From Clavelina lepadiformis (taxonomy: Eukaryota > Chordata > Ascidiacea > Aplousobranchia > Clavelinidae), in contig NC_135247.1 of the NCBI RefSeq assembly GCF_947623445.1, positions 18,788,501 to 18,852,500 on the forward strand: a stretch of DNA of 64,000 nt, given 5' to 3'. The notes under the pieces were generated by a model. The model did no database searches and was not told the origin of the DNA. It worked only from the letters and a program-made list of their open reading frames with translations. This document shows positions 1 to 63,951 of this stretch, piece by piece. The translations under genes were made by a program, and so were the position numbers. Every line of letters starts with the position of its first letter. The first letter of the stretch is position 1.

Positions 1-1
1 A

Positions 2-1422: not shown

Positions 1423-2480
1423 CAAATAAAAACAAACGTTTACAAAAATTACCTTAAATATTTACTAGAATTATCTAATCTTGACTCATTCTGTCGTGCT
1501 GATCTTTGCCAAGTGGAGGCAGGAAGAACTTGCAGGAAATCTTGTGAGAATGCTGCAGATTGTAGAGGAGCACTGAAGAGATGTGTTTGTGATGACGTTT
1601 GTGGAATGTCTTGTATTAATCCAAGTAACAGTTTGGTGAAAGCAAAATAGTTGTACTGTAGTAGAAAACCGATAACGGGACATTCATTATGTTTTCAAGT
1701 AATCGAAACTTTTTATTGGCAAAGTCTAAGCAATATTGGTCCAGTTTTTTACACGTTTTCGGCTTTACAATGCCCATTCATTTGTTTCTCAATTAGAAGC
1801 TCTTTGTGATGATTTGGATACATTCAGCAATGGGACAATCGAAGGCGACAGAACTTATGGCGATACAGTTCATTACGTTTGCAATGAGGGATTCATTCTC
1901 AAAGGAACAAGAACCAGGACATGTAGATCCGACAAAAAATGGACTGGAACAGCTCCAACTTGCTTGGGTAAGATTGGCTGTGTCAGAATTTACATTCAAG
2001 CGCATTTATGCAGTTACCATTCAAAGAAACTTTCCCAAGTTGAACCACACCTTACATTATATACCAAGTCCATTTATATCGCGATGGATAGTATATACTG
2101 TAAAAATAAATATATGAGTTATGTTTGCATGATATTAACTTCTACTTTAAGTTGTAAAAGCTTCCTAATTCCATTCATTTTTACAACATAATCAAATGCT
2201 TTATCAATTTCTTCAATAAAACATCTATATACGCTTGCATTAGAAAGTTAGTTTATTTTGTTACAACTTTTAAATGTAAATACCTTACATTGTTTTACAA
2301 AAAATTAATTTACGAAATTATTGTTTTGGAGTTCATTGTTAAACGTTTTAAGTCTTTTATTGTATAAGAGTGTGTTCAACTAACAATTTATTAACAGTTC
2401 TAACAAAGCAATAGCCCTTTCCTGCACATAACAACTAAGTCAGGGGCTTCTCTTGTTCTTAACGAACTGCTAGTAAGATA
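1322..2480 (+). repeat. Segmental duplication, copy 1 (protease tail + WAP-like + CCP exons)
   Basis: This stretch matches 15768-16965 at high identity over exons and introns alike. It starts inside the last protease exon, at the codons for YYTSVAPLMSWITE, and runs through the WAP-like exon and the next CCP exon into the following intron. The match resumes over the next CCP exon (2550-2732 against 17739-17921). Here the protease part is a working last exon, so this copy is the likelier source. Confidence 0.9.
1425..1430 (+). terminator. Polyadenylation signal of the protease gene
   Basis: AATAAA lies two bases after the protease stop codon. It supports 1420-1422 as the true end of that gene. 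Confidence 0.5.
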
Positions 2481-5400
2481 GTATAAACGTGATTTACATT
2501 TGTAGGTTACTTAACGTTTCTGTCAAAACAATTTTATTATTGTAAACAGAGATAGAGTGCTTCGTACCCAGAGCTCCAAGCTTCGGTTCTGTTGAACCTC
2601 CAAGGTATAGCAGAGTGGCATTGGATGAGATCATAACATACTCTTGTGGTCGAAGACATCGACTGGTCGGTACCTCTAGCGCAATTTGCCAAGAAGACCG
2701 AGCATTTACTTCCCCACCACCACGTTGCCAAGGTAGGTATTGTTAAGATAAAATGTGTAATGGTGGGATGATAAAAGAAACAAGATTTTTAAAATATCAC
2801 ACTTTTATCAATCACATTCAATTAAACACCCTTCCAGAAATAACCTGTCCACGTCGAACCACACCTGCAGACGCCACACCAAGTTCATTGAAGTTGCGAT
2901 GGGTGGTAGATGATGTTCTAAGTTACACTTGCGCTGTTGGGTATGACTTTAGGGGAAATCCTTCATCAACCTGTCTAGTTACTGGACGTTGGTCAAATGA
3001 TTTACCCAATTGTCGCAGTGAGCAGTTTATTGTATTTTTGTCAGCTTATTACTATTCTATTGTCACATTTGTAATAAGAGGTAAAGGGACTCAGATATAG
3101 AGTAGTTTCATCTCATTGTAAACACATTCTCAAACTATACAGAGAAAAAGTGATTATCAAGAATTGCCATTTCTACCTTCTAATATAACACTTCATTGTA
3201 ACAGAATTACTTCTACAGAAGTAAAACTTTACAGAATTACCGTGTCACAATCACCATGAGTTATAAACCAGCACTCTAAAATAGCACGTAAGACTCATAA
3301 TGTGCACGTTGTTGTTTCAGTACGACGATGTGTACACCAAGACGTTCCAGAACATTCTACAGCTAACCCTAATAAAAGTCAATGGGTTTATGGAGACAGA
3401 GTCACTTACACTTGTGGTCGTGGCTACGAGTTGTCAGGATCGGCTGAATCACGCTGCACGTCAAGTGGTCGTTGGTCTGATCCTCCACCTACTTGCACAA
3501 GTAAGTCGGTAGCAAGTTGATGTTGAAACAGTTTTATGAGTTGTTTTAAACGAGCTGAAACGTATTTAATTTAGTGTTGTGTGAACAACATGCTGAAGCT
3601 ATAACCTATTAGAATTTTATTGTGTTTACTTTACAGTAAGATCATGCGAGCATCCCACACCACCACGTAACGTCGACATTATAAGACCAGCAAACAAAAT
3701 GTCTTGGGTGTATGAAGATACTATAACATATGGATGTAGCAGAGGTTTTCGCTTAAGTGGAGCCAAAATTTTGTCATGCACTGAAGACGGGACGTGGTCG
3801 CACCCTGTACCGACTTGCCAACGTAATACTCAACTTTACTGCAGGCATTACATATGTTACAGATTTTCTATTGCCAGGTCCTTCTCCACCGCTTTCACGG
3901 CCCACTCAAAGCCAAAAAGCCTCTTTTAATGTAGTCTGATTGTATTTCGATATCAGATTAAAAACACTCCACTCCGCTTTTGGGGCTTGACTTACGGTGC
4001 ACACGTTTTACAATAAAATGGTAAAATATAATAAAGCAACCAGTTCTGAGTGACCAACAAAAACGACAGGTCCTCTTCCTAAACGCCCATACCACGACTG
4101 CCCTTGAAAGCCACCTTTTTTCGCCAGCTCACCTCTACCGCCTGAAGCCCATGCGGGAGACCAACCGAAAACAGGACACGTATGAATCTGCACTGGACCA
4201 CATCGAAACACTTGAGGCGGTATAAACAACATGACAAAAACAGTGGACAAGAGAAATCAATCAAATCAGATCATCAAGAGAAATAACAAACAGAATAAAA
4301 GTTAACTGATAACTAAGGAAAACAAAAGCGTGGGAAGATGCACGAAAAACAAACAAACAGTAATGCGAAATATTATTTCCCCACACATACAGTATACCTT
4401 GCTAACCAAGTCAACTACTTATCTAGGGCTCTACGATTTATGTTACGGCTTATCCGCAAAAATAAATTGTGTTTTTGCAGAAATCACCTGTGAGCGCTCT
4501 GACCCCGACTTCGGCGAGTCAATCCCCAGAAAGGAAAGATATATTTTCGAGGAAGAAATTACATATTCATGCAACGAAGGATTTGATTTGGAGGGTGCAA
4601 TTAGGTCAATTTGTCAAGCATCTGGAAGTTGGAATAACGATCCTCCAAACTGCTATTTGCCTGGTAAATGCTCGCTTTCATTCAATCCTCGTTAAAAGCA
4701 TTTCAGTAAAACTTAAACGAGAATGTCCTCCCGATAGTGGTAATAAAAGACGGATTGATAATAATTGCTAATTGTCATAAACGTCCTTACTAACTTGACT
4801 TGTAATACGATTTTGACGCATTTAGTTTATAATAATCAATGGTATTACAATTAGGAGATTTTTAAAATTAAATTTTGAAATGACAACACACGTTTAAACA
4901 ACGGTAAGAAGGGGTAGATCCTGCGTATATTAGAACATGAAGGATACTAACGATAATGGCATAATATGCAGGAGTTTGGAAAACCTGGGGTGGATGGACA
5001 CCTTGCTCAGTTACCTGTGGTGAGGGAAACAGAAGAAGATGGAGAGTTTGTGGAAGATATGGTCGTACCGGAGGAGCATGCCTGGGCTCTTCCTTGCAAG
5101 ACGAAGGATGTTCTACTCCATGCCCAGCAAGAAAAACAAGTAAAAGTTGCTTTTCAATCTGAACCGTGACTGCTCGTTACAATTTGAACAATTACATAAA
5201 AATTTACAAAAGCGAAAACATCTGCCTTTACTACCTTAAATCTAAGCGTGAACTAACCTTCTAATCAATCATTCGTAATTATTTCAATTTTCAAGCGCTG
5301 ACCGTGAGTAACCTTAATTGAACTAGTTTAAAAAAATTGAATTTTACAAAATTAACATTTTTCCGAAGCGTTAATAAAAGAAATAATCTATCAATACACA

Positions 5401-6682
5401 TAATTATATAAACAGTTAGATTAGAACTAATTAGAATTATTTAGATTAGGCAAACATCCTGGCCATTGCTTGTCTGTAATTCTTTTTTAATAACCGTTTT
5501 GTTTTTTTTGCAATGACGTTTCCCCGTAAATTCTTTCCCGCGTCTTGTTATCCGGGTTAACTCGCACACACTGTAGCTTACATTGTGATTTTTAGAACAG
5601 GCAACAAAATGTGTGTAGTCCACACAATGTTTATGGCGAATCTTGCCTGAGTCCGGAAGTGTTTTAAATATGAGTTGACACGCTTGTGTGGACGCCGTGA
5701 TTCTTGCTGCCATTAACTCTATACATTTTTATAGCGCTTACATCCACTTCTTATATAACATTAGACTTATGTCTGAGTTACCATAATTTATCAGCTGTAA
5801 ATAAGTCAAGGTAAATCATATTATTGTCTGAACTATGATGAAATTACTTCAATGGATCCACTTGTACATACAGGTTACTCTGACAAGGAGTACTTAATCT
5901 TTCGAATCGAGAAAAACTTCAATGATGCTAGAGACGCTTGTCAGAATTTAGGGGGAGATCTTGCCTTGGTAAAAACAGAGATGATTCAAAATGCACTTTC
6001 AACAATTATTGGGAGTCTTGGACGCACACCTTTCAGTTATGGTTATTTTATCGGAATGACTGATCAAAAACAAGAAGGACGCTGGCACTGGCTTGACGAT
6101 ACACGCCTGACTCATAGAAACTGGAACTGGCGTGAACCGAACAATGCAGGAAATGAAGACTGCGGAAGCATGTCGCGAAACGGAGGATGGAATGATCTCG
6201 CTTGTTGGCGAAAAACCTATTATATTTGCGAAAGAGGTGAGTAGACAAATTAATTATGCAAAGTCATGTTAACCTGAAAGGTTTTATACTAGCTTATACT
6301 TTATACTGCCATTGTTTATGTTGCAAAACTTATCTTGCAATTGCTTGACAAGGCCATGGGTTGTATCTATTTTGTACCAGATATGGACCCGTGCAGCGAC
6401 ACGGTGTGTATGAATGATGGTCGATGCGTTGCCGACAGTAACCTCAGAAGTTACGACTGTCAATGCCCTTCATATACAAGAGGGGATCATTGCGAGAGAA
6501 GTAGGATATATTTACTTATGGTATTTTGCTTTTCGGATTACTCCTGATACACTGCTTTTTTTGTAGTTTTCAACCCTTGCTGGAATTCGCCTTGTCAAAG
6601 CGGAAATTGTCATTCTGAAGACGGCTATTATTACTGCGTTTGTCCGGAAAATTCGTTCGGGTTGCACTGCGACAACGGTTAA
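1469..6682 (+). CDS. Gene A: WAP-like/CCP/TSP1/C-type lectin/EGF mosaic protein
   Basis: Exons: WAP-like 1469-1624; CCP 1797-1967, 2550-2732, 2838-3017, 3321-3500, 3637-3822, 4481-4663; TSP1 4972-5139; C-type lectin 5874-6236; EGF 6381-6500; EGF 6567-6682 ending in TAA. Every internal exon is a multiple of three with phase-1 borders. CCPs show the four Cys and late Trp pattern; the CCP at 2550 has drifted (SCGRRHRLVG against SCDRGYRLVG in gene C). TSP1 shows WGGWTPCSVTCGEG. The lectin has four Cys, EPN and WND motifs, which in known families bind calcium and mannose-type sugars. No signal-peptide exon is visible; the first exon begins only 46 bp after the protease stop, and its acceptor is not at the site used in the gene C copy. 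Gene A may be 5'-truncated or have a start I cannot see. Confidence 0.75.
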
Positions 6683-6713
6683 ACACGAAATTTCAACTTA
6701 CTGTGGCGACCGT

Positions 6714-6719
6714 AATAAA
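6714..6719 (+). terminator. Polyadenylation signal of gene A
   Basis: AATAAA occurs 32 bp after the TAA that ends the second EGF exon, supporting the end of gene A here rather than splicing on to the CCP exons from 7705. Confidence 0.5.
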
Positions 6720-7704
6720 ATATTATAACAATTAGATAAATTGGCACCTTAAAAGCGGTTTTTGTGGGATTTCTCCAGCTGGAATTAATTAAATGTTTAA
6801 ACTGACGTATTTATCGGCGTTAAGCAGTTATTCAAACAAAGGAAATTAAAATGTTTCAAGTAGCATTGTATTTTACCGTGTAATGTTTGATGGTACTTGG
6901 TCAGGGTTTCGGTATAATAGAAGATGTAACATGGCTTGTACGTAGCAATGCATTGTTTCTAGTAATCTTTATTCAAAGCGTAGTTCCAAATCGACATGTG
7001 ACGTAGTAAGTGTGTCAAGTGGTTTTCTGTGCTGATGTAAATCGATTGAATTCTTTGTGAAAAAGTAGAATGTATAACATTGACAAGAGATACGTTTCAT
7101 TGTATGGATAATTTGGCGTTCGCTCATTGGTCAATACTTTAGTATAAAAGCAAATGTTTGGTTTAAATCGCTCTCTTGGAAATTCTCTTCTTTCTGAGTT
7201 ATTTCCTCTGAATTGAAGTTATTACTAAGATATTGGGAATTGGAAGCATGGTGATTAATTGGTTTCGATGTGACAACTTATTCGGACAATATAACAATTA
7301 GACTTTATGAAGTTGGTGTTGATTTGAAGAAACATTATTGAGACAGTAAACGCAACGGAGTCAAAGACAATCATTTCGGAGTCAAACAATAAGACTTGGC
7401 TTGGCCTTGGGCCAGCCTATAAGTAAAGCCTAACATCACACCATTCCCCATATTACATTACTATTTTTTATCTTTCTGGCTTCGTTTCATTTGTCAATAC
7501 GTTTTCATTCTTCGGCCTATTTCTAGAGAAACATCAGTACTCTAATAGATCTAGAATGGTCCGAAAAATTTTGGCATTTCATTATATAATTAATTGCTGT
7601 AACTACTTTTATAGTGCGTCGTTATTGACGCGAGCATAGTTTCTAAATAAATCATTATCGAGCACTGTTTAACGTTTTAGTGTTAAACATTCTTTTGTTT
7701 GTAG
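6720..7704. other. Non-coding gap between gene A and CCP exons
   Basis: No coding exon with domain content or a signal peptide was found on either strand. The stretch contains a TATA-like motif at 7143-7150. Confidence 0.5.
7143..7150 (+). promoter_or_regulatory. TATA-box-like motif
   Basis: TATAAAAG lies about 560 bp upstream of the CCP exon at 7705. It could mark a promoter for the CCP exon group that follows, but no first coding exon was found after it. Confidence 0.3.
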
Positions 7705-8598
7705 TCGTACAGTGTCCAAAGCCGCGGATAGAAGACATAATACAATTATTAGGAAATAATGAGCAGTACGCGTATGACGTGGGAACCAGGTTAAAGTTTA
7801 GTTGCCGGGACATTGAGCAAACAATAGAAGGTTATGACGAAATAACATGCAGGAGGATGGAACCTGGAATAAATCTCCGCCAAATACTTGCGGTAAAACT
7901 GAATGCCATAAAAATACTTAGTGTAGCCTATGGAAACTACGTATATGTTTAGGTTATGTTACACAGACTTTCACACTCATTAGCTGTAAATATTTAAGTT
8001 TCTTCAATGGAAACAGCACAATGCCTGCTCATACCGTTCTCTTATATTTATTCGTATATCATTCAAAAAAAACCATTTATCTCCGCAAGTTCTTTCTTAG
8101 AGACACTGACTTGCCCTTCGGTCACTGCTCCTGCAAATGGAAGAATTGCAGAATCAGCCAACAGAGTTCATGTTCGTGGTTCAACAATCAGATTTGAATG
8201 TAACGGAGGTTATGAGGTCGAAGGAAGAGAATCAATTAGATGCAGAGATGACTACACGTGGGATAGATCTGTACCTACATGCAGAGGTAGGCTACACGGA
8301 TACAGCATCCTTAAACTAATCATCAAGAAGTTTTTACCTGAAGAGTATGTTTTTCGAAATAACAAAATCAACAGCTTGCATCACTTAACAACGTAAAATT
8401 TTATTAACATTCCAGAAAGGAAATGCCCTGATGTTAGTAACCCGCAAAACGGAAGATTTGTTCTGGAATCTGGAAATCGTTTTGCACGCTCATCAACGCT
8501 ACGATTGGAATGTGACGAAGGATACGAAGTGGACGGAAACGACATGATAACTTGCCGGGATGATTATACATGGAGCCATTCAAGGCCTTCATGCAGAG
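7705..8598 (+). pseudogene. Three orphan CCP exons
   Basis: CCP-like exons are 7705-7892, 8101-8286 and 8416-8598. The second and third are intact phase 1-1 exons with four Cys and the final Trp (TLTCPSV start; KCPDVSNPQ start) and resemble each other, as recent tandem duplicates would. The first matches the CCP exon at 59011-59196 of gene D but is 188 bases long instead of 186. Its 3' part (GTWNKSPPNTC) reads only in a shifted frame, so it is frameshifted. No signal exon and no terminal exon could be joined to them; the sequence just downstream is a foreign duplication. I read this as the remains of a gene, although alternative splicing from gene A cannot be excluded. Confidence 0.6.
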
Positions 8599-8759
8599 GT
8601 AAGCATAAATACTACTTCATCATTTCTTTGAAGGCAAGCAATTTTTTATTAAGTTAACATTATTTAGCGATTTATGTTTAAATGATTTGGCTGAGGTCAC
8701 AAAGTGTCCTGCTTTCGATAAACAAAACCATAAAATAAAGATCGATTTGTCTCGGTCCA

Positions 8760-9631
8760 TTTTATTTATCCATGACCTACTCCAGACAAATCTGTTTGCA
8801 TTCATAGATTTTTCAAGCGAATAGGGATGCTGAAACCAAAGTGGCAAACTTCTTTCCAACACCAGTTGTAGCCAAACACTTCTGGTTGTTGGTTCAAGGA
8901 TGACACAATCACATCAGCATGCGTCTGAAATATCTTACTTGTTTGAATTAATAATAAACTTGGTAGATTACGCGATAGGACGTATATATGATCTTGTTGA
9001 AAAGTTTAATAATTTTTCTATAAATACAAAGTTTAACAAAGGAATTATTATTAGTATAGAGTTATTTGAAATCATTGAATATATCTTATAGTTACAATTT
9101 GTATAAGTTATTTCTTTCAATCGCATCTTTTGTGGCCAGGTCACTTATGAGACGTCATAAAATAAAATTAATCCACCGGGTATTTTAATGAATTTAAACC
9201 TGCAGGAAACCTTACAAAATTGTTGTTTGTGGTTTCTTTGGCGTCACCGGGTCATGAGTTTCGCATTTTCATGCTGATACGACAGTATTACTTATGGGGG
9301 AAAGGTTGATATATAGAACAACATAGCTATATGTGTTACCAAACTCGGTAGGGAGAAACTTCTTAAAGCAAAATACCCACTCACAAGCATCGTTATAAAA
9401 TCTCTTTTTTTGACCAAAAGTCTCTCATTATGACGGAACCAAGAGAAGAATTTCGATAAGATCGCATCTTTCTCAAAGCAGGTGAGAAATGTCGAAATAA
9501 ATGGCATTGTACGCATGAGTGAACACGTGCCGACGTCATAGGGTTAGTAAAAAATCAAACGTTGAGTTGTACGGAAAAGAAAAGTCGCGCAGTTAAGTAC
9601 TTTAACGAGAAAGGACAATCCTTAAAATCGC
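8760..9631 (+). repeat. Segmental duplication: copy of the discoidin gene 3' end and flank
   Basis: This stretch matches about 25201-26073 at high identity. It contains a pseudo-copy of the last discoidin exon (8808-8951) with the same length and same acceptor as the source exon, but the Trp of the GWHNH motif has become TGA. The remaining 680 bp copy the 3' flank of the discoidin gene. The right-hand junction runs straight into the middle of a CCP exon. Confidence 0.9.
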
Positions 9632-9639
9632 AACTTTTT

Positions 9640-9746
9640 TGTCACCTATTTTCCTGACTGCAAGTCGCCTAAAGGCATAAAAAATGGTTATTGGGAAGGG
9701 GACAATTTCTTTTTCGGCAGCAGGGTTTATTATCACTGCAATCTCG
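9640..9746 (+). pseudogene. Truncated CCP exon fragment
   Basis: Codons from Cys at 9659 (CKSPKGIKNGYWEGDNF) to the donor after 9746 match the 3' half of the split CCP exons at 55496-55666 and 63527-63697. The 5' half of the exon is missing and is replaced by the copied discoidin flank, so the exon is dead. Confidence 0.75.
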
Positions 9747-10034
9747 GTATCTTCACTTGTGATGCACTTTAAAGCCAACGCACGGCCATTCACAAAGAGT
9801 CATTTACGCCTGAAGCATATTATACAGCAACAGTCGGTTACTCTGTAGAATAAAGTTTACAGGCTACAAAGATGAAATATTATTGACGTAGACACGTTCG
9901 ACAAGTGATAAATGTAATCAATTTAATGTTATTGCTACCAACTAATTCATTAAAATTTACAGAAAACACCAGCCAGGAACAGACAGTGTCACAAGTTAGA
10001 GATAATTCAAGCTAATTGTTGGCTAATTGTTGAA
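9747..10034. other. Non-coding gap before gene B
   Basis: Nothing recognisable on either strand. Confidence 0.4.
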
Positions 10035-12773
10035 GATGGGAAGATTGCAGAAAAGTGTTTTTCTGTTCACGTTCCGTTACCAAGATAAACAACTCTTACA
10101 ATAGTTTTTGACGTTTATGTATACAAACCGGTTTGGAATATTGATAATATTGGGATTGCTGTTGACAGTATAGTTAGTTGATATCTTAACGTTCTGATCA
10201 AAACCGTATCAGTAGTCTCGCTTTCCAACTGATTTTGAAAAATAAAGTGCTTAAGAAGCGTATTACTTATCAAGTTTCCGGCAACAAGAACCTTAAACTA
10301 ATTGCATGTCTCGTTTTGCAGTATTGCTTTCGACCGGACAAGAAACATGCGTGCGCAATTTATCACTTCTTGAAGAGGGTAGAAATTGCAGAAAGTTTTG
10401 CGACACAAACTCTGACTGCAGAAGTTCTTCGAAACAATGCCTGTGCGATGATGTTTGTGGAAAGTCTTGCTATAACCCAAGTAAGACATAATACGCAATT
10501 AAGACGATACCATTCCTTTTACTGGCACTCTTCGTTAAGCTGCCTTGGCACAAAACGAAGTGTTTTTGCTTCGAAATGAAGCAACCTAGAAACACGACTT
10601 CGTGGTGACAACTGGCAAACAATATACTTTGCAAAACAATATACTCCAACAAACGAATACTTGGAAACGTCATCGTCTTTTATGTGCATGAACGCAATAC
10701 TCGTCTGCCATTAGATTTGTTGCAAATATCATCATACCTTAGATGTTACGATCAAATATGGTTTGTTTAAGACGCCCCATGCGAAGCTCTCGAACCTGTC
10801 GAAAACGCCGTAATAGAAGGAGAAAGAGCCTATGGAAATGAGGTCATCTACACATGCAATGATGGATATGTTTTAGTCGGCAGCAGTAAGAGAACTTGCC
10901 GATCCGACAAGAAATGGACGGGTTCAGCACCGTACTGCAAAGGTAAATGAAACCACTGAGCAAGTAAGAATTTATTTTATCTGCAGTTCCACAGTAGTTG
11001 CAGAGTAAATCAATAACTTTAATTTCAATTCTCTGCATCGGTTATGTGTCATCAGCTGTTTGTTCGACTCCCATGCGCACGTCAAGCTCATATCCAGAAA
11101 CAAGCAAAGACGTTTATGAAACTGGAGATGTTGTCACTTACAGCTTCCGCTTTGGTAAGTGTGTTTGCTGTAAAGTTTCAAAACGCAGCCTTCAAGTGAT
11201 AAATTGTAGTGGCGTAAGCCCTGCGTCTTTGACTTGAAGTCTAATGCATAGCCCATAGTAAATGTAGATTGTCAGAGTTAATGCAAAAAGGCTTCGGTGA
11301 AATATTTACGAATTGTGGACACACACACATGCACACACACCTTTCTCACATGACGTTAAAACAGGTTTTATTTTATCCGGAAATCCCAACATAACCTGCA
11401 CATCAGATGGTTGGACGGAACCAAGGTACCTTTGCTCCAAAGTAAATTGTAAATCGCCCAGCGAAATAAACAATGGTTATTACGGAAGGGGACGACTTTT
11501 TCTTCGGCAGCAGAGTTTTTATCATTTCATTTTTATCATTTTTATCAGTTTTTATCGTTTTTATCATTTTTATCATTTGGTATGTTGTCATTGTACAGTA
11601 TTTATGCCCCTTCGACAAAAACAAAATTGAAAAAAAAACTGCATGAACAATCAAGCATTATAAAAATATTTTCATTCCTTTTTTATAGGTGACGAATGTA
11701 GTATTCCGGATTCTTATCAAAACGGAGGAACTTGTATCAACAGGATAGATGATTACACTTGTTTTTGCGGGCACGGATACGAAGGAAAGGATTGCTCAAT
11801 ACGTAAGCAACATTCAAATCATGCATAAGAAGTACTGATATGTAACATCATAGTTTTCATAAGGAATCTATGTAGCTTGAATAAATGCATTCTCAGGCCT
11901 TGATTGCTTGGTGCCTCCTGCGCCAACCGATGGATCCGTTTCACCGTCATCGGGCAACAGAGTGTTATTGGATGGGACAATTACTTACTCATGCGATCCA
12001 GGTTACTTCATGAAAAATCAGCTACATGGGACGTTGAAAGCAACATGTCTGAGGAGCGGGAATTGGAATCGACCCACCCCAGTCTGTGAAGGTAGCCTAC
12101 TTATAAGAAACCTGTGTTGTCAAAAGGCTTTCATATTCTGCTGTAATACTTAAACCTGTGCAGAGAGTCGATGTATTGTTCCTCAAACACCGGCTCACGG
12201 AACCTTGTCAAGATCTGCTGGGGAAAAAGTCCCCGCAGACAGAAGTGTTTCATTTACATGTGATGAAGGCTATACAATGATCGGACAACCAACCATATAT
12301 TGCCGACGCTCCGGAACTTGGTCAAATGAGTTTCCTGAGTGTGTGGATTAGTAAAAGTATTACTTGGCATATCATTGCTGCATGTAAGTTGCAAATTGTT
12401 CTTTGCTTTTTTGACAAACACTTTGAAACGTTTAGAACGACAATGCACTGACTCCGGGGATTGTCATTTTCCTTTCGACTACAAAGGAAGAACCTATAAG
12501 TCTTGTATTGAATCTAAAATTGGTCTCACTGACTGGTGTTCCTTCACTGCAGAGTATGATGATGAATGGGACAGATGTGACAAGTCTTGTCCTTGTGCGT
12601 TTTACTTTGTTGTTGTTCCTGCTCGCACTATTGTGGGGTCGATCAGATTTACTTATGTGGCTGGTGACAGCATCACGTATTCATGCGAAGCTGGATATAA
12701 TATGATGGGACCAGCCACGATAGTTTGTCAGAATACTGGAAAGTGGAGCAGCAACCCACCAAGCTGCGTATGA
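10035..12773 (+). pseudogene. Gene B: decaying WAP-like/CCP/EGF/FN2 paralogue
   Basis: Pieces in order: signal-peptide-like exon from ATG 10035 (MGRLQKSVFLF); WAP-like 10322-10480; CCP 10772-10942; half CCP 11056-11154; split CCP exon 11365-11579; EGF 11689-11802; CCP 11897-12091; CCP 12164-12351; FN2 fused to CCP 12436-12773. Several lesions point to decay. The first donor reads AT instead of GT when aligned with gene C. The half CCP has TYSFRFG where relatives have Cys. Exon 11365-11579 carries an extra base and a repeat expansion. The EGF lacks its second Cys. The donor after ECV (GT in gene D) is AT here, giving a TAG stop at 12349-12351. The 3' part from 11897 could still be expressed. 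Polyadenylation signal at 12934-12939. Confidence 0.65.
11521..11580 (+). repeat. Short tandem repeat grown inside a CCP exon
   Basis: About five to six copies of a TTTTTATCA-type unit sit where paralogous exons have a single TTTATTATCAC before the donor. The donor GGTATGTT follows directly, so the repeat looks like an expansion of the exon's own 3' end. Confidence 0.6.
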
Positions 12774-12933
12774 ACGTGTTATCAGCTCTACCGCATATCT
12801 TTGTGGTTGTCTATAAAACCTCAAACACTTAAGACTGTTGGGAGTGGTTTAGTCGTAATGATAGTTTAGTTTAGTCGTAATGACTTAAGACTGTTAGCAA
12901 TGGTGTCGTTGTAATGGTAAACGATCTTCTTCT

Positions 12934-12939
12934 AATAAA
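12934..12939 (+). terminator. Polyadenylation signal downstream of gene B
   Basis: AATAAA about 160 bp after the TGA that ends the fused FN2-CCP exon. Confidence 0.35.
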
Positions 12940-14370
12940 TGATTTTTTTCAATGACTTCGTGTGCTATAGCCTGGTACACTGGCATGGTATGGCTTCGTG
13001 CCGTCTGTACAGTATATTAAAATTGTAAGAAATATGAAATATATTTGGTGAAAGGTTTGACCAAGCACAGTGTTTATTACTTAGCAGTTGTTGTTGTTTT
13101 TACACTTTAGGCGTTTACGGTTTACGTTTACTTTACGGTTTACACTTTAGGCCTACACCTGAAGTGTAAAAAGCTTCACAAATGATCAGATATATCCTTA
13201 GCTTTCGTGACCCTCAGCAATGAGTATGGTCATGTGCGGTCAGTCTACTTTGACGTTGAGCGAGAAAGTAGGTTGGATTGTGGTGCGCAGTTTTAATCAC
13301 TTGTTTCATTAGAAAGAAACCAAGCTTTTATGTACAGCATGTTTGTTGTGGGAGTGCTTTGAAGATGAGAACCTTTGAGGAATTATGGCTGTTAAACAAT
13401 GTATCAAGTCTGGTAGGAAGGGTTAGTTGTACTTCAATTGCAAACATAAGCTGGAATAACTGACAGAGTTTACACAAACCTCAGTGTTGTTGTTGGTTGC
13501 ATAATGGAAAATACCATTGCTTTAAAACGCGCTGATTACTCTAGAAGAGAAGCGTGTACACGTCACTGGAAATACACGCGCCTGAGGGTGAGGTCACAAC
13601 TTACTACGAGTTAATTCAAAACACATGATCATCAATAAACATCCTAAATCGTATCACTTTATTATCAACTTGTTCCACACTTCTCGCAGTCGTCTAATCA
13701 TACAGGCCGCGATTTTCAACGAAATTATTGGCAGCTTACCTGTAGCACAGGAAAAGAATTTTTTTTAAACATTTCAAAAATCTTTGCTGCAGGTAACATT
13801 CTTGTTCGGCGTGTAATATGTAAATTAGCTCAGATAAACTATTTTTCCAATCTCTCATATTAACGATGTGTTGATAACTTACACGCTTTAGATCATCTTC
13901 ACGTATTGTTCGAGCTTCAAATTCCGTCTTACCTTTGTTGTATCAAAATGAAAGGCCGCAAAATACGTACTGGTCAGTTTTGTACAGAATAAAAACAATC
14001 TTAGTATTAAGCGCAGTGAAAGAACTTCGACCTCAAAGAGAATTGATTTGACGAACTCATATTTAGTCTTTGTATTTGGTGACGAAATCCCACATTTGCT
14101 TTGCACCGTTTGTTGACTTTCTTCAAATATAGCCTCAAGTGATTGTGCAAAAGGGAATTTTTTACGACGGTTCCTGAAACTTATAATCTCAAAACGGAAT
14201 CGTAAAGTTATTTCAGGATCGTTAATGCGCAAACCACAACAAAAAGTTTTCAAACGAAACCGCGATAAATTTTTTCAGCGAGTTCGCCCGTTCAAATCGC
14301 TCCAGGCAATTAAACATACGCTTATAAGATTCCTTTAATGTTAAAGAAAGAAAATTTAGTTTCAGAAAAC
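12940..14370. other. Intergenic gap between genes B and C
   Basis: No supported gene. A 121-codon open frame on the minus strand (13888-14253) has no recognisable domain or splice context. Confidence 0.5.
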
Positions 14371-19857: not shown

Positions 19858-19892
<35 letters not shown>

Positions 19893-25390: not shown

Positions 25391-26073
25391 TAAAAAACTT
25401 GGAAGATTACGCGACAGGACGTATATATGATCTTTATAATTTTTCTATAATTACAAAGTTTAACAAATGAAATATTATTAGTGAAGCTATAGAGTTATTT
25501 GAAATCATTGAATATATCTCATACAGTAGTTATAATGTACGCAAATTATTTCTTTCAATCGCATCTTTTGTGGTCAGGTCACTTATGAAACCTCACAAAG
25601 TAAAATTAATCCACCGGGTAAATTAATGAATTTAAACCTGCAGGAAACCTTACAAAATTGTTGTTTGTGGTTTCTTTGGCGTCACCGGGTCATGCGTTAA
25701 GCATTCTCATGCTAATACGACAGTATTATTTATCGGAAAAGGTTGATATATAGAACAACATAGCTAAATGTGTTACTAAACTTGGTAGGGAGAAATTTCT
25801 AAAAGCAAACACCCACTCACAAGCATCGTTATAAAATCTCTTTTATTGACCAAAATTCTCTCATTGTGACGAACCACGAGAAGGATTTTGATAAAATCGC
25901 ATCTTTCCCGAAACAGGTGAGAAATGTCGAAATGAACGACATTGTATGCATGAGTGAACACGTGCCGACGTCATAGGGTTCGTAAAAATTGAAACGTTGA
26001 GTTGCACGGAAAAGAAAAGTCGCGCAGTTAAGTGCTTTAAAGAGAAAGGACGATCGTTAAAATCGCAACTTTG
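25201..26073 (+). repeat. Segmental duplication source: discoidin 3' end and flank
   Basis: It matches 8760-9631. Here the exon is intact and joined to the rest of the discoidin gene, so this is the source copy. Confidence 0.85.
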
Positions 26074-54019: not shown

Positions 54020-57000
54020 ATGTTCTTCTACCTGAAGCTAAAGATATTCGCTGTACTTTGCTTTTTTGCAATAACAGGTAAAAGTGTTTTTCGAACGACT
54101 GTACAAGTTGAACGTGAAGTAAGTTAAGTTAAAGGCAACATAAGTCTACCCAAGATTTGAAAGAAGTAAGCTATCACAGTGCAGGTCTATGTATAATGTG
54201 ATGTATATTTGAGCTGATACGTTATGTGCTATGTTTGTGCACAGACGTTTAATAACCAATAAGTAGTAAATGGTTTGATATTTCTAAAGGCTTGTATGAA
54301 TTCTTCGTTTTATTTTGTGATACAGTTGTTTCTATGGCGAACGATCAAGTTTGCTCTGATCGTGATGAAAATAATGTCGAATCGGGGAGGAAATGCAGAA
54401 AGAGCTGCGAGACTGACCAAGATTGTAGGAATCCGAATAAACAATGTCTATGTGACGATCTATGTGGAATGTCTTGCGTTAACCCAGGTACGAGTCGTTG
54501 GCAACATTCAATACTGACATCCATGTGGATGATGTGGTGAGAGTGAAAAATAATCACAAAATAGGTTTCAATAAAAGGTCTCTTGCTACAAATTCAAGTG
54601 TTTTTCCTGCACTTTTTGCCGTTGTTTTGAACGTTCAAGTTTTCTTGAAATTTCGTTACGCTTGAATGCTTTCTTCCTGTTTACGAAATGAGACACTGAA
54701 GCGATGATGACGTCATATGGATCCGCTGCATTGAAAGCAAAGCCTTTGCATGAGTTAATTGTTTTTCGACGCCACAAAATAATAAATAGCTCTTCACTTC
54801 TGCAATCATGCAACATTGTGCTATATGTATAGTCAAGAAAAGCTTTATCATTGTGGTATAAAAACAATTTGTCGTTTTTTGTCAAATATCTTCAATACCC
54901 ATAACTTAGCTGTTTTATCGATTAAAAACTTAGTTTATTTATTTTTTCTTTGCGTATTTTTAAGATTGGATATGCTCAGAACTTGAGCAATTAGAAAACG
55001 TCTCCATAGAAGGAAACAGAACATACGGAAGTGAGGTCACATACATTTGCAACGATGGATACGTTTTGGTTGGCAGCAGCACAAGAAGATGTCGATCTGA
55101 CAAGACATGGACCGGATCAGCGCCATATTGTGATGGTAGGTAAAAACACTTTGGTTTCATGATGTAAATGAACGCAATTACATAGCACCTTTGCTCAGCT
55201 CTGAATTCTGTTGGCAGCATTCGAATGTCCGTACCCCGCCCGTATATCGAGGGCATTCCCCGAAACAGAGAAAAGAGTTTTCTTCCTCGGTGACGTAGTG
55301 ACGTATGAGTGCAACTACGGTTTGTACAAACACATGTAATTCCACGCACGAGCATCAAGTTGTAATCACGTGTAGTACCATAGTGCGATGAATTAGAAAC
55401 TAATCATGTTAAATTGCACAAAGGAGCAGCTGAAAACAGCGCGTGACATGTTTATTGTTTAAATTGGAATCTGATGCTGCAAATGTTCATCACAGGTTAT
55501 ATTTTATCTGGAAATCCCAACATAACATGCACAAGACAGGGCTGGACGACAAACCTGATCCAATGCACAAGAGTGGAATGCGGGCCGCCTCCAAATATAA
55601 CAGACGGTTACTGGGAAGGAAACGATTTTCATTTCGGATGCAGGGTCACTTATCACTGCCATGTTGGTATGTTAAAGCATGAAGTATCTTTCACCATTCC
55701 TTGCAATAATATTTATTAGCTTTAACCAAATATGACTTGTGAAGAAATACAATAGACTCGCCTGAGCTTAGAATCCTTAACTAACCATTACCCCTAAGTC
55801 GATAGAGGTTTTAAATAATCTGCTTTCTAGTTAAAGTTTTTATTCGCCTGTGAAATAGCCACTTTGTTGACATGTACGGCCGCCCTCTCGCCGTCAGGTG
55901 GCCACTGTTTTGTGCGCACCTGTAGGCCACTTGCACAAGCTATAACTGCTCACGTGTTAAGTCTTGTTTACCGTTATAACCACACCCTTCTTAGTATTTT
56001 AACAACGCGTCCGAAGTGTTTACGAATTACTTATGAGTACATTTCCAAGATATCTTGAATTCTGAAACGGGATTTCCATAAATTATTATTCTATGATCGC
56101 CAGGGTATGAGTTCCAACAAAGAAAACATTTTATTTCTTGTTCCACGGATGGTATCTGGCAAGGGGATGTCCCATCCTGCAAAGGTTAGTCAAATTTTTT
56201 GTCATTCATTTTTCAAATAGGATGATGCTCTCTAATTTATTCACAGTGAAGACGTGTTCGGCTCCGATAGCTCCTGTCAATGGAGAGGTAAATGACGACG
56301 GTATCGATTACACTTACGGAAACGAAATTAGCTACATTTGCGACCCCGGTTATGAGCTAAACGGAAGTGACGTTGGACGGTGCAACGAAAACAGGACTTG
56401 GGGAGATGCTCCTAACTGCATTGGTAGGACAATCTAGACAAGTTACTTTGTAAACCATTGAGTTCTATTTGATCAACATTTTATCGTTAACTTGTGCTTG
56501 CGGATCTGCATCTTGAAACGAAAATTTCTGATGCCAAATGAAATTGTAAAAGGAAAAATTCCGGTTCTTTTAAACATGTTCAGACAGGCGTTGTCTGGTG
56601 CCGTCCGCTCCTGCTCATAGCCTCGCTTCTCGAAATCCACAAACAAGAGTCTTACCAAGTCAAAACATTTCATTTAGCTGCAGTGAAGGTTTCACAATGA
56701 TTGGGCCAACAACAATATTTTGTAGTTATGAAGGAACTTGGTCAAATGATTTTCCTGAGTGTGTGGGTTAGTAGAAGCATCGCTATTGGTACCTTCACAA
56801 ACCATACAACCTTTCATGAAATGCTTTTGTCACAATTAGCTAGGAGATGCACTCCTAGGGGCGAATGTCAATTTCCTTTCATGCATGAAGGAAAAAGCCA
56901 TAAATCTTGCATCCAAAGCCGATACGGGGCGTTTTGTGAGACAGCAACAAGCAGAGAAGGATTTGCAAGATGCGACCGAACCTGCCCCGGTGAGCATTCT

Positions 57001-60000
57001 TTTCACTATCTCTCTCTTTTTTACTAAAACTACGACAAAAACACATTAAAAACAAGAGTAATCTCGAAGTTTAAGGTCTACAAGTTATGCGAAGTGTAGT
57101 GAGACAAGCAAATAATACTGATGGGCGTTTGCAAGAATAGTTGAATTATAATTCTGATATATAGTAACTATACAATTCGTTACAAGAAAAGAACTGCTTA
57201 TAGTTTACAGCTTGCAATAAGAGCGAGGATAGTTATTGCTCAAAACGTCGATAGTTAAAATGTTTGCATCGAATCTGGCTCTAGTCTATTTGCTACAAGT
57301 AACTCGAGATCCTGTTTGCTCTTTTCAAACTTGCATAATGCGGTAATGTGCATCAGAGTTTCAAAATATTTTATTGTAAAGTCTGGTTTGCAAAGTTTTA
57401 CTTCTGCAACGAACTAGTTATTTAAACTCATGCTGTTGTTGGATGTTTGTTTTTTTTTACAGTCGGTCGGTCAAGTTGGAGTTCATGGAGTTCGTGCTCA
57501 GAGGGATGCGCAGAAGGTCAACAAAGTCGAACTAGACGATGTCAAAATCCGCCAGGTGGAGCAAGATGTGAAGGACAAGGCTTTGAAAGAAAGGAATGCA
57601 ATATTCAAACCTGTCTCAGTGATGGCGGAGTTCGTAAGTCCCAAACCTTAAATTTAAACAAACTTAAACTTTAACCTGTTAGATCCGTTTTGATTTGCGA
57701 AATTGTAATCAAACAAAGACAAGTGTACGCAATGCCATAAAGGCAGTTTAGCAAAAATTTGTCTTGAAAAATTTTTGATTTCAACATGTGTAGGTGTGAA
57801 CAACAAGATCTACAAATTACTTACAATCGCTTCCAAGTACAACCAAGCCGCGGCAAAATGCGCTCAGTTACCGGGACGGTTGGCGATGCTCAAAACGAAG
57901 GAAATCTTTGACAAAGTTCTAACGATCTTATCACACAACGGTGTCTATTACATTGGGATGAAACAAATAAAAGGAACCTGGCGATATTCCGATGGAAGTC
58001 GAGTTCCTTTGCGTGGAGATGGTGGTTTTCATCGTTGGGCTTGGGGACAGCCCGACAACTTGTGGTTTAACGAACATTGTGGTAGTGTACGAACAGGACC
58101 GAGGAACTGGAACGACATTAATTGTGGAGAACGAATTCATTTTGTCTGCGAAATTGGTGAGTACAGTAGGCTATATACTGTAACTGGCTAAATAGGCTAT
58201 ATACTGTAACTGGCAAAATGGGCTATATACTGTAACTGGCTTAAAAGGCTATATACTGTAACTGGCTAAATGGGCTATATACTGTAACTGGCTAAATGGG
58301 CTATATACTGTAACTGGCTAAATGGGCTATATACTGTAACTGGCTAAATGGGCTATATACTGTAACTGGCTAAATGGGCTATATACTGTAACTGGCTAAA
58401 TGGGCTATATACTGTAACTGGCTAAATGGGCTATATACTGTAACTGGCTAAATGGGCTATTTGCTGTAATTTTTGATGAAAATGGTTACATTTGTATGTT
58501 TATTAAAGTTGAAGCTTTGTGTCACTTTTAACATCATAGAAAACAACTTCAACGTACTGAAATTATAAGTTTAATTTTGTAACATTATATATTTAACATA
58601 GACATCAACCCATGTAGCAATAACCCTTGCCAGAATGGAGGACTTTGCCGAAAGACGGACAACTCATTCAAATGCAACTGTATAAAGCCTTACAAAGGAG
58701 ACATTTGCGACCAAGGTAGCTCTGACCTTCAATCAGTATTTTAAGATTTAAACCACTTAACAAACTGTGCAATGTATTAACCAAGAAAGGTCATAAATAA
58801 TAATCTCTCGTTGGATTTTTTCGTTTTACTTCACTTCTTTAAGGCGACATTTATGCAAACAAGGTGGCTTAAACTTTCAATCATTGTTTTAAGACTTAAT
58901 CCGATGAACAACCTGCGAAATGGATTTAGCAAGAAAAAGATAAATGATAATATCTGTCTCTTTATCTTTTTACTTTCCTTTAAATAGTTTGTTATTTTGT
59001 CTAAATCTAGCGGTTACATGCGATCGTCCTGATGTAACGTCATCAATAGAAATAACAGGAAAACACGAGGACACTTACATTCACGGATCGACAATTTCAT
59101 TTGAATGCAAAAGTCAGAATGAGGTTTTGAGTGGAAACACGAAAATAACCTGCACAGATCGTGGAACCTGGAATAAAATTCCTCCTACATCATGCAGTAA
59201 GAGATAGTTTTAAAGCCCAACCGAAAATATATCCATGCACAAACGTTGTTGTTTGCTCTAATCTTAGGCTACTTGGCTTTCTGTTTAAGCGCTTTCATTT
59301 TGCAGGGTTTGATCCATGCAGCAGCTCCCCTTGCATAAACGGCGGTACTTGCCACCGCAGTGGTCGTGGATATTTATGCGTTTGCTTGGGCAGTGCTTAT
59401 GGAACTAACTGTGAGCATGGTAAGTTATGAATTTTATAGCTCCAACGGCTCAAGACATAGCTGTATATTTATTTAGCTCAAGTCTAAGGTGGCCTTAAAT
59501 TATTGTGATGTTATAATATCTTTTATTACCAAACACTTGGTGTATGCATCATCAAGGACTAAGAAAAACATTTTGTCAAACATGGACATAGGCCCGACAG
59601 TAACATTAACTCGGACGTATATGACAAGCTCTCATAGACCAGGACACATAAAAAATATTGTAAAATGACATGAACCAATCCTGTTACTACAATCAGGATA
59701 TTTGGGATTGTAACAAGGGGTTTTTGAAATTAAAAAGAGTCGCAAAATCAAGCACAGATAAAATTATTATTTCAGTTTTAATCAAGATTAACTAAAGATT
59801 TCCCGGTAAATTTTATTTTGCTGTACAGCGCTTGACCCGTGTTTGAGCGATCCTTGTCAGAATGGGGGACAATGCAGAAGAAATTTCAACTTATTTACAT
59901 GCGAATGTTCTCCTGAATGGACTGGGGACCGGTGCGAGGATGGTGGGGAATTACTTCACAAATATACCAGAACCTGAACCCATTTCAACTGCAAACAATT

Positions 60001-60242
60001 TTGATCCTTTAAAACTGTTTTGAAATTGATTTTTTACAGAATCACCTCGATGCAATGAACTTTCTCCTCCTTTAAACGGTTCCATTATTACCACGGTAGG
60101 AGCCGAGAGTTCTGTTCTTCCCGGATCTTCCACCAGGTTCCAGTGCGATGAAGGTTTTCTGTTGGAGGGGGAGAGTGTCTTGGAATGTCTGAGCAACTCG
60201 GAGTGGAGCGATACAGTTCCTCGCTGTCGTCGCAATCAATAA
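54020..60242 (+). CDS. Gene D: secreted WAP-like/CCP/FN2/TSP1/C-type lectin/EGF mosaic protein
   Basis: Fifteen exons, about 778 aa. Signal peptide 54020-54077 ([19 protein letters not shown]); WAP-like 54326-54487; CCP 54965-55135; split CCPs 55218-55319, 55496-55666, 56104-56184; CCP 56247-56423; FN2 56840-56989 ([13 protein letters not shown]); TSP1 57463-57633 ([11 protein letters not shown]); C-type lectin 57794-58156 with QPD and WND motifs; EGF 58602-58715; CCP 59011-59196; EGF 59306-59419; EGF 59829-59942; CCP 60040-60242 ending TAA. Each internal exon is a multiple of three in phase 1-1. QPD in place of EPN usually shifts C-type lectins from mannose to galactose. No membrane anchor is seen; likely a secreted, calcium-dependent recognition protein. 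An orphan half-CCP exon at about 56678-56765 is left out. AATAAA follows the stop at 60243-60248. Confidence 0.88.
56678..56765 (+). pseudogene. Orphan second half of a CCP exon in gene D
   Basis: [15 protein letters not shown] to FPECVG matches the 3' half of the gene B CCP exon at 12164-12351. The first half is missing, replaced by unrelated sequence, and the only acceptors give the wrong phase, so gene D probably splices past it. Its donor (GTGG/GTTAGT) is intact. Confidence 0.65.
58167..58470 (+). repeat. 26-bp minisatellite
   Basis: About 11.5 tandem units of GGCTATATACTGTAACTGGC plus CTAAATG-like spacer, very uniform in the middle, begin 10 bp after the donor of the gene D lectin exon. 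Likely variable in copy number. Confidence 0.95.
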
Positions 60243-60248
60243 AATAAA
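60243..60248 (+). terminator. Polyadenylation signal of gene D
   Basis: AATAAA starts directly after the stop codon; another AATAAA follows near 60298. Confidence 0.45.
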
Positions 60249-60922: not shown

Positions 60923-60955
60923 ATGGTGTTTTTTAAAACTGAATTGTATTCGAGG

Positions 60956-63951
60956 ATGACGTGTTGGATATATTTGAACTTGGTCCTTTTTATCAGCTTC
61001 TATTCAGCCGAATCAACAAGTGAGAACATCTTTTATACATTTTCTCCCAAAGAAGTTGCTCGATTCTCTCCAAAAAATCAGCCAAAAATAAAATAGTTTT
61101 ACACGCAGTGGTGCAGGGTGTAGAGAAAACCTTTGCGTTGTGGATATTAATTAGTTGAAGAAATATCGATAAATTTGTTTTAAATCTTCACCCAGCAAGT
61201 GGACAAGAATGCTTCGAGCGCGATGAAACCGACCTCGAACTGGGGAGAACATGCAAGAAAAGTTGCGAATCCGCTGACGACTGTAAAAACGTTCTGAAAC
61301 AATGTCTTTGTGACGACATATGTGGAATGTCTTGCGTTAATCCAGGTATTTAGCCTATTTTTGATCTTGATCACAGTGATTTGTGAACATTGTTCCTGTA
61401 ATGTGAAAAATATAATTACAGCAACTTTGAGCTTGAAAGCTGTTTTGATAAAAACAGAACCAGAACTAATTTCTCAAAACTTGTTGTTTCGAGTCTCGCA
61501 ATTGGCCGCTTTATTGAATGCTTTGCGGAAATGATAAATCGACACGATTGCCTGTTTAAGACAGAACTCAATTTCATCGAACACCTAACATTTTAAGCTT
61601 GGCTGAAGACTGTACATAAATTGTCATCGAGAAACAATAAATAAAGCAGAGTTCAATGATCTGCTTCTTCTCTATCGACCTCACTGACCACGGCTGTTGG
61701 TTGCACATTTGACAAATCAACAGTTGTCGTTTTGTCAAGGGTTGGGTGTTTCATTTTCTTTTGAATGTCACCACAGCTCGGGGTAGTTGGTGCAAGAGCA
61801 AGTTTGGGAAAATATAACTTTGATTAAGTCGTGTTTTTTTTTTTTAAGAATTGGTTTGTCCCGAACTGGAATCGCCTGATTATGGTCGTATCCATGGCAA
61901 CCGAACCTACGGAAGTGAGGTCACATACACATGCAATGATGGATACGTTTTGGTTGGCAGCAGCACAAGAAGATGTCGATCTGACAAGAAATGGAGTGGA
62001 TCAGCGCCATATTGCGAAGGTGATGTCCATTGCTGGGTTGGCTAAAGCCAAATAAGATCTTTTTGTCCAAACTATACTGATACTCTGCTGTAAAATAACA
62101 ACACGATACTTCATTGGGTTTGTTGATCTGAGCAATCTTACTACGTTGTTTTATCTTTAAATTGTCAATGTAGTAATTATGAAATATCATTTTAGTTTGT
62201 TTTATTTAATAGTTGTTGGTCGGACAAGTAGACCAGATTGCCCTCAAAGAAATGAAAATAAAATCGAAGTTGGACGTAATTGCAAAAAAAGTTGCGAGAC
62301 CGATGAAAATTGCCGGAATCCGAGTAAACAATGTTTATGTGACGACATATGCGGAATGTCTTGCATTAATATAGGTACTGTATTTTGTAGCCTGTGTCAT
62401 GTAGGCCTACGCGGTGTTAAATGTATATGGCTATAGCAATCAGCAAATTTGCATTGCTATGTTGTTTAATCTAAGTAAATACACAGCTGTAATTAGAGTC
62501 GACAAAAATGGTTTATTTTGCGTTTATTGCCTTTATTCCAATATATTTCGTAATGTTTCAAACCAAACCCCTTCAAATTGATTTGAAAAAATTATATTTT
62601 GTCGCATTGGTGAACGACTGAATTGACGCAGGGTGATTTGATGCTCATGAAACTACGTTGTCTGAAGTTTCGATGATACAAGAAAGTGTTAGCCGTGTCT
62701 TTTTGTTAAGAGCAGAGTGCATGTTAATTTCGTTGGTTCGCCAATATTGCACATTTGTTATTTCACTTGTCTTGCTCGACAGTTTTGTTTATTTCTTAAT
62801 TTGTTAAGAATGGGTATGCCCCGAACTTGATACACCTGATTATGGTCGTATCCATGGCAACCGAACATACGGAAGTGAGGTCACATACACATGCAACGAT
62901 GGGTACGTTTTGGTTGGCAGCAGCTCAAGAAGATGTCGATCTGACAAGACATGGACTGGATCAGCACCGACCTGTGAAGGTGATTGTACTTGTCGTTGTT
63001 TTTTCTGTTTCAATTCTTGTCACGTGCTGGATAGCTTGAAAGTTTGCCTTATTGTGAAGGTGACCTGGCGATTTTGCTTCTAGTATTCGTTCCTTTCTTA
63101 TTAAATGCAGCAGAACACGTGATTACTTATGCAACTATTTCTTTTACTTTATCATGCATGTGCGTGTTATTGATACGCGGCTGATTACCATTTATTTCAA
63201 TTAACTGTCAATTTTAGCAATATTCTCTTGTTCAAATCCTTCAAGGATATCAAGGGCATTCCCCGAAACAAGGAAAAGTGTTTTTTTAATCGGTGACGTG
63301 GTAACATATGAGTGCAACTACGGTAAATAAACATTTTACCTCTTTTCTGTTAAATTTCTTATTCCTCCGTATCGAAACCCGAATTGTTCCTGTCATTTAC
63401 AGAAATAGCTCCGATTAAACAGAATATTATCCGGTTGTTTTCAACAATTTCTGTTTTTTTGGAGAGAATCTATTACGACATAAAAAGTGCAAATCCTATG
63501 TTTACGGCTGCAAATGTTCATCACAGGTCATATTTTTTCTGGAAATCCCAACGTAACATGCACAAGACAGGGCTGGACGACAAACCTGATCCAATGCACA
63601 AGAGTGGAATGCGGGCCGCCTCCAAATATAACAAACGGTTACTGGGAAGGAAACGATTTTCATTTCGGCGGCAGAGCCACTTACCACTGCCATGTTGGTA
63701 TGTTAAAGCATGCATGGTAGTCATTCCTCACCTCTCCGCGTTGAGGTTATTGTTACGTTTTGTTTGGAAATAATTGGTCTTTTTTGTTTTGTCTTGGTCA
63801 TAATGTGACAAGTGACACCAGTTACAAAGTGTCTCTCAAGCATAACACACATCAACTTGTTGATTGCCAGGTTACGAACTCAGCACAAGACGTAACTTTG
63901 TTTCTTGTGCTACCAATGGTCGATGGCGAGAAGATGTTCCCTCTTGTGAAG
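60956..63951 (+). CDS. Gene E: tandem paralogue of gene D, 5' part
   Basis: Exons: signal peptide 60956-61019 (MTCWIYLNLVLFISFYSAES; an in-frame upstream ATG exists at 60923); WAP-like 61196-61345; CCP 61849-62019; WAP-like 62213-62374; CCP 62809-62979; half CCP 63218-63322; second half plus next first half 63527-63697; second half 63871-63951. The gene runs off the right edge in an intron. All internal exons are multiples of three in phase 1-1. Compared with gene D, the WAP-like/CCP pair is present twice; the two CCP exons are nearly identical in sequence, so the pair was duplicated recently. Exon 63527-63697 differs from its gene D counterpart 55496-55666 at about 9 of 171 bases. Later FN2, TSP1 and lectin exons are expected outside the window. 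Confidence 0.85.

Follow-up and report, generated by a model that had tools for sequence, protein, structure and literature searches.

We analysed a window of 64,000 bases from the 209-Mb genome of the ascidian Clavelina lepadiformis (chromosome 8, C8:18788501-18852500, so that window position 1 is C8:18788501; plain positions below refer to the window), which holds repeated copies of a module with eight cysteines (C1 to C8) that resembles the WAP domain and is set among exons for CCP, C-type lectin and other modules and for a protease similar to complement factor B/C2 (Table 1). A search for the cysteine pattern in all six frames of the window recovered nine modules at the places given by an initial annotation, eight on the plus strand and one a minus-strand relic, compared to none in 30 random windows generated by a first-order Markov model from the same dinucleotide transitions. 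AG/GT borders, lengths divisible by 3 and the starts annotated initially are seen in all eight exons of the plus strand, as fits phase 1-1 exons; the exon finder required phase 1-1 symmetry, so that these borders indicate consistency and are not proof. All exon joins were made by hand from genomic DNA.

The module does not, as had been proposed, always come first after the signal peptide. Only three of the eight plus-strand modules (14546, 54326 and 61196) have a signal-like exon immediately in front; those at 15288 and 62213 are second modules that follow a WAP-CCP pair, and those at 1469 and 15920 stand directly behind the last exon of a serine protease. Ahead of 10322, no signal exon was detected in the exon scan. 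Past the end of the window, WAP, two CCPs and another WAP can be read in open frames from 69058 onwards. The module recurs within genes rather than simply opening them.

The spacing C2-x3-C3-x5-C4-x5/6-C5-x-C6-x3-C7-x3-C8, read earlier from these exons, was found in all eight plus-strand modules, with a ninth Cys in the 1469 exon. In a wider set of 78 modules (58 distinct sequences, near-identical repeats included), collected from scanned C. lepadiformis DNA with a pattern that allowed 0-2 residues between the paired cysteines, 77 read C-x-C-D and one CC, and Asp follows C5-x-C6 in all 77 split modules. C2 and C3 are three residues apart in 77 of the 78 modules, the C1-C2 stretch has 12-14 residues in 62, and all eight cysteines are invariant in the 23 diverse copies from the genome that were used for the profile and Pfam tests. 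Given that 77 of 78 modules are split by exactly one residue and continue with Asp, the split is a fixed trait of a subfamily and not drift in a few pseudogenes. For 75 modules sorted into three spacing classes, pooled ratios of nonsynonymous to synonymous differences (pN/pS) were 0.32, 0.55 and 0.37; being uncorrected counts over non-independent pairs with high pS, these values show constraint on the module protein and not its strength.

Among Pfam families, WAP (PF00095) was the best for all eight window modules, two of which exceed the gathering cut-off, and it matched 18 of the 23 diverse copies at E ≤ 0.1 (best E = 7.7e-7; the remaining five had no match at that level), whereas Squash matched one of 23. 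The profile search that had been suggested as a check thus returned WAP as the sole recurrent Pfam family, and NCBIfam returned no family for the 23 copies. Genome-wide, 30 of the 47 Pfam WAP matches listed exceed the cut-off, 10 of these 30 only together with neighbours in frame. When a profile of the 23 copies was searched against the PDB, elafin came first (E = 0.0035) with a single gap placed exactly between the paired cysteines, followed by knottin-type peptides, SLPI and an unrelated coactivator (E from 0.03 to 0.84). This alignment supports, at the level of sequence, the proposal of a WAP-like module with one residue inserted into the cysteine pair. With the WAP/WFDC four-disulfide core (PF00095; elafin, SLPI, omwaprin, HE4) the module shares eight cysteines, the arrangement C-x5-C-x5-C..C-x3-C-x3-C, the CGxxC end and, in both module models, a predicted beta hairpin in the C-terminal half; it differs in the residue between C5 and C6 and the subsequent Asp, in a C2-C3 distance of only 3, and in the mostly 12-14 residues between C1 and C2, predicted to be partly helical in the 15288 module. 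Adjacency of C5 and C6, a canonical WAP trait, fails in 77 of the 78 modules, and the Pfam scores of six of the eight window modules, which lie under the cut-off, count against the assignment. By its sequence the module is a WAP-like variant and not a canonical WAP domain.

The genome holds adjacent as well as split forms: WAP-like domains of the CC type lie at C3:19965414 and C3:15833380, both under the Pfam cut-off, and one CC-type candidate did not fit the pattern that gave the 78 modules. Comparison of the CC-type and split-type profiles gave a weak match (hhalign probability 19, E = 0.0012, 21 columns).

That the module is joined to CCP and lectin modules, as first annotated, is correct but incomplete, since vWA and trypsin domains, in the order of factor B, belong to the family as well. 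The protease gene that ends at window position 1422 (C8:18784.4-18789.9 kb) reads WAP-CCP-WAP-CCP-CCP-CCP-vWA-trypsin. Upstream of the window, its last two parts match Pfam VWA (1.6e-8) and Trypsin (1.5e-30); the Sushi matches are those of two CCP exons in the truncated copy within the window, homologous to the first two CCP exons of this gene, and the other two CCPs were recognised by eye, in a stretch matching C2 and CR1. As far as its sequence can be read, the gene has the order of factor B/C2 with two extra WAP modules. Among the best 60 of 434 matches in a PDB profile search with a hand-joined model of this gene from which the WAP modules were omitted, complement C2 was aligned from the CCPs into the vWA domain (query 101-378, E = 2.5e-23). 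The triad motifs in the window-end gene are TAAHV (not TAAHC), FDYDIAL and GDSGGP. The likeness to complement factor B/C2 lies in the CCPs-vWA-trypsin order, in the alignment of C2 over CCP and vWA, and in the presence of His, Asp and Ser triad motifs. The Clavelina genes differ in having two WAPs among the N-terminal CCPs, many tandem copies, an altered metal-ion-dependent adhesion site (MIDAS) in the window array, and a WAP close behind most C8 protease exons; we know of no WAP in vertebrate factor B or C2.

The association extends beyond single genes. Genome-wide searches, in which only the best candidates were scored and near-identical repeats count twice, listed 24 protease-exon and 17 vWA-exon matches; 16 of the vWA exons are on C8, and every one of these 16 has a split-pair WAP within 6 kb. 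Three scans together gave 75 WAP places on C8; 61 of them have a vWA or protease exon no more than 10 kb away, compared to 2.1% of random positions. A minus-strand locus of 3.1 kb at C1:24.66 Mb reads, by eye, signal-like peptide, WAP, CCP, WAP, CCP, CCP, CCP, with a GDSGGP protease exon about 5 kb beyond it, so that the WAP-CCP-WAP-CCP arrangement is not confined to the C8 array. For a WAP on C6, no vWA or protease exon was listed on its contig.

Several observations weigh against so close a relation to factor B. Among the same best 60 of 434 matches, the CCP-rich CR1, CR2 and factor H outrank C2 by way of their CCPs, the best stretch for factor B itself (E = 5.6e-20) covers CCPs only, and plasma kallikrein is the best match of the trypsin part. 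An exact search found all three triad motifs together in only five of nine array copies. The MIDAS motif DxSxS is kept in three of seven vWA groups (L060, L063 and L064) and reads DxSxD in nine array copies found by motif and in L059, L061 and L062, a difference that, on sequence, suggests functional divergence among the factor B-like copies. For 14 of the 75 C8 WAP places, no vWA or protease exon was found within 10 kb; seven of the nine window modules belong here, namely those of the truncated copy (14546-16069), the inverted relic and the modules at 54326, 61196 and 62213.

Two repeats involve these genes. C8:18642536-18724796 and C8:18721966-18804213 form a tandem repeat of 82.3 kb at 99.64% identity and an offset of 79.4 kb, which contains many of the genes and whose second copy extends into window positions 1-15713; it could be a very young duplication or else an artefact of assembly. 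On the minus strand at C8:18055207-18055650 (L042), about 740 kb from the WAP region of the 10322 type, 444 bases match that region, flanks included, at 94.8-95.5% identity and in inverted orientation, and the encoded module protein is identical to that of the 10322 type.

The reading that we favour, and hold to be rather likely, is that the module is a variant WAP, with C5 and C6 split by one residue that is followed by Asp, and that it is a standing part of an amplified factor B/C2-like family in which it would serve as spacer or docking unit. The order of the family, whose members are presumably secreted, would be signal-WAP-CCP-WAP-CCP-CCP-CCP-vWA-trypsin, and duplication of the phase-1 exon probably placed the module at the start of the neighbouring CCP/TSP1/lectin/EGF mosaics and behind the protease domain. 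Both in the part equivalent to Ba of factor B and in the lectin mosaics, the modules would be compact, disulfide-locked units whose task is to position the CCPs and to engage partner proteins, not to inhibit proteases.

More than one account can be given of the WAP exons that follow the protease. A same-strand WAP lies within 1 kb behind 15 of the 22 C8 protease exons (11 of the 15 in the array at 18.6-18.9 Mb) and is absent there in seven. Six copies, four diverged and two from the array, were tested for an intron between the two parts. In the diverged copies L012, L017, L043 and L046, the best-scoring in-frame intron is of phase 1, 60-105 bases long and in the same place, with the donors GTAAGT, GTATAT, GTAATA and GTAAGA, respectively; without this intron, the parts of L017 and L046 are in different frames, and the frame of L043 is open either way. 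In addition, the post-protease WAP exons of the copies tested have no Met before C1. For the diverged copies, the predicted introns favour protease-WAP fusions. The phase-1 intron of the two array copies has a weak donor, GTTCTG, and one of the two copies holds a second intron of equal score. In an alignment of 12 array rows (near-identical repeats included), seven have TAA between the parts, followed by AATAAA in five; of the remaining rows, one has a stop further on and four are open through. The array copies may reflect fusion, readthrough, a short form or decay.

Instead, genes separate from the protease might begin with the 1469 and 15920 exons, perhaps within a trans-spliced operon, an alternative that we consider less likely than not but worth serious attention: the protease copy at the start of the window has its own stop at 1420-1422 and then AATAAA, and the array donor is weak, with its equally scored competitor. 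However, the exon scan found no signal exon upstream of 1469 or 15920, and both the missing Met and the predicted in-frame intron of the four diverged copies, two of which are out of frame without it, speak for joined genes. In these four copies, the phase-1 introns suggest fusion of proteases to mosaics. A more speculative possibility, which we put forward tentatively, is that Clavelina factor B-like proteases carry their own recognition arm: the trypsin domain would be spliced in frame to WAP-CCPs-TSP1-C-type lectin-EGF, and the enzyme could dock on a microbial surface by its lectin instead of by C3b, with split-pair WAPs as joints at both ends.

As to function, the initial annotation had linked WAP domains to protease inhibition or antimicrobial action, and neither drew support from the tests, in view of the C2-C3 spacing of 3 in 77 of 78 modules and of mixed charges. 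Net charge from C1 to C8 ranges from -4 to +5 in the eight window modules, and of 77 modules 45 are positive, 10 zero and 22 negative. We regard it as unlikely that the module is a trypsin-type inhibitor restraining the factor B-like protease or its activator. The residue after C2 is P1 in elafin and SLPI; in the Clavelina set it is R or K in 52 of the 78 modules, which keeps such a role in play, but Gly in 21, the second module of the factor B-like genes among them. In the linked protease the motif is DACKGDSGGP, which we take to place Asp at position 189 and hence to mean a trypsin-like preference. A review (Wen et al., PMC11408880) ties antiprotease activity to intervals of 6 residues from Cys 1 to Cys 2 and of 8 from Cys 2 to Cys 3, ascribes this spacing to WFDC4 (C-terminal domain) and WFDC14 alone, and considers that 3, 4 or 7 residues between Cys 2 and 3 may give too little room. 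WFDC2 and WFDC12, which by that account lack the 6/8 spacing, are also listed there as antiprotease, so the rule is not strict. The 6/8 correlate of WAP inhibitors is absent from the Clavelina modules, with 3 residues in the second interval (77 of 78) and 12-14 in the first (62 of 78), and the short C2-x3-C3 loop, as far as spacing is indicative, speaks against protease inhibition. Taken together, spacing and mixed charges would make docking or spacing a more plausible role than inhibition or killing.

The predicted fold bears on a further alternative. Models of the 15288 and 61196 modules reached a predicted local distance difference test score (pLDDT) of 86.5 and 75.8. Structural comparison by VIA-align covered Foldseek's top 13 and 45 chains, among which WAP entries matched by the sequence profile (such as 1fle and 4doq) were not included, an absence that carries no weight. 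The core of the 15288 model superposed on knottin peptides at 1.0-2.6 Å over the 27-30 C-terminal residues (1.0-1.7 Å for the top four), and on omwaprin, elafin and SLPI at 4.8-6.5 Å over 34-41 residues. Knottins thus fit more tightly than WAP structures, the former over the C-terminal 27-30 residues and the latter over the whole module, and structural Z values for the module models were all 2.0-2.9, none of them decisive. The module might have a cystine-knot-like fold with an extra N-terminal Cys, its WAP likeness being convergence among small disulfide proteins. This reading could also draw on weak Pfam matches of one module to Dickkopf and Squash, on a grafted knottin in third place of the PDB profile list (E = 0.031), and on geometry, as a C5-x-C6 on one strand would point both side chains to the same face; in WAP domains the disulfides join C1-C6, C2-C7, C3-C5 and C4-C8. 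We nevertheless judge a cystine-knot-like fold improbable, because WAP is the only family that recurs by sequence (18 of 23 copies, against one for Squash), elafin heads the PDB list, and every structural Z is below 3. The variant WAP that we prefer raises a structural puzzle of its own, namely how four disulfides fit once the adjacent pair is parted.

A last reading, that the module acts as an antimicrobial peptide domain of the crustin or omwaprin kind, is very improbable: according to the same review WAP domains can be antibacterial, with cationic charge held responsible in WFDC4 and WFDC14 (PMC11408880), and 45 of 77 modules are net positive, but 22 are net negative, the window's eight span -4 to +5, and the module seems embedded in large mosaics.

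As the sister group of vertebrates, tunicates provide, through their factor B, part of the evidence on how the alternative complement pathway arose. The solitary-ascidian Bf of Ji 2000 is reportedly that of Halocynthia. Extra N-terminal domains are not new to ascidian factor B: the reported addition is LDL_A (PMC4714745), where Clavelina has WAP. Titles in the reference list of PMC5465252 refer to Ciona factor B genes as triplicated and to a domain combination as unique; compared to the triplication named in the Ciona title, 16 vWA exons were found on C8 of Clavelina, some of them in near-identical repeats. In the literature searched, partly available as excerpts and with subscription journals outside its reach, no WAP module on factor B and no split Cys pair in a WAP domain was found. 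With the WAP, a known family of immune proteins gains an unusual component. If our reading is right, a tandem-amplified factor B-like family with WAPs, possibly fused to lectin mosaics, would illustrate the freedom with which evolution can remodel the recognition part of a convertase. The C-x-C-D signature offers a simple handle for finding the same module in other animals.

Table 1. Split-pair WAP exons and neighbouring features in the window.
Feature	Position	Strand	Basis or remark
3' end of factor B/C2-like protease gene, trypsin-domain exons	1-1422	+	DACKGDSGGP 1022-1051; last exon 1210 to stop 1420-1422; 5' part upstream at C8:18784400-18788500
Putative 81-base phase-1 intron	1388-1468	+	Weak donor TCAG/GTTCTG; would join protease in frame to WAP, skipping the stop; AATAAA after stop
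Split-pair WAP exon behind protease	1469-1624	+	
CCP/sushi exon	1797-1967	+	Pfam Sushi 5.1e-12
Further CCP-like exons	2550, 2838, 3321, 3637, within 4427-4663	+	By eye, exon scan
TSP1 module	4965-5139	+	Pfam TSP_1 6.6e-9
C-type lectin exon	5874-6236	+	Pfam Lectin_C 1.9e-23
EGF exon	6381-6500	+	Pfam EGF 1.2e-5
Split-pair WAP exon	10322-10480	+	Pattern and exon borders
Signal-like exon, phase-1 donor	14371-14431	+	
Split-pair WAP exon, first module of truncated factor B-like gene	14546-14692	+	
CCP exon	14920-15138	+	Pfam Sushi 5.3e-7
Split-pair WAP exon, second module	15288-15428	+	Pfam WAP 21.3 bits vs cut-off 20.8
CCP exon	15521-15697	+	Pfam Sushi 8e-9
Remnant of trypsin-domain tail, open frame with next WAP; gene middle missing	15767-15919	+	
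Split-pair WAP exon behind protease tail	15920-16069	+	Pfam WAP 24.5 bits, over cut-off
Inverted relic of 14546-type WAP exon	21616-21771	-	First Cys is a stop; 96% identical to 14536-14691
Signal-like exon	54020-54077	+	
Split-pair WAP exon, first module of mosaic 54020-60242	54326-54487	+	
Remainder of 54020 mosaic: CCPs, fn2-like (56840), TSP1-like (57463), C-type lectin (57794)	54965-60242	+	By eye; lectin by Pfam Lectin_C 4.7e-13
Later part of 54020 mosaic: EGF-like exons; last CCP in open frame up to stop	58602, ~59300, 59829; 60030-60239	+	By eye
Signal-like exon	60956-61019	+	
Split-pair WAP exon, first module	61196-61345	+	
CCP-like exon between two WAP exons	61849-62019	+	By eye, exon scan
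Split-pair WAP exon, second module	62213-62374	+	Gene seems to continue past the window to ~67856

Open frames at about 38900-50600 resemble, by eye, DNA topoisomerase II, which would be a housekeeping gene inside the array. Three blocks are repeated in the same order at 8760-9643 and 25199-26078, about 16.4 kb apart and 90-96% identical, and local direct repeats, 89-94% identical and about 1 kb apart, occupy 41018-41417 and 41968-42485.

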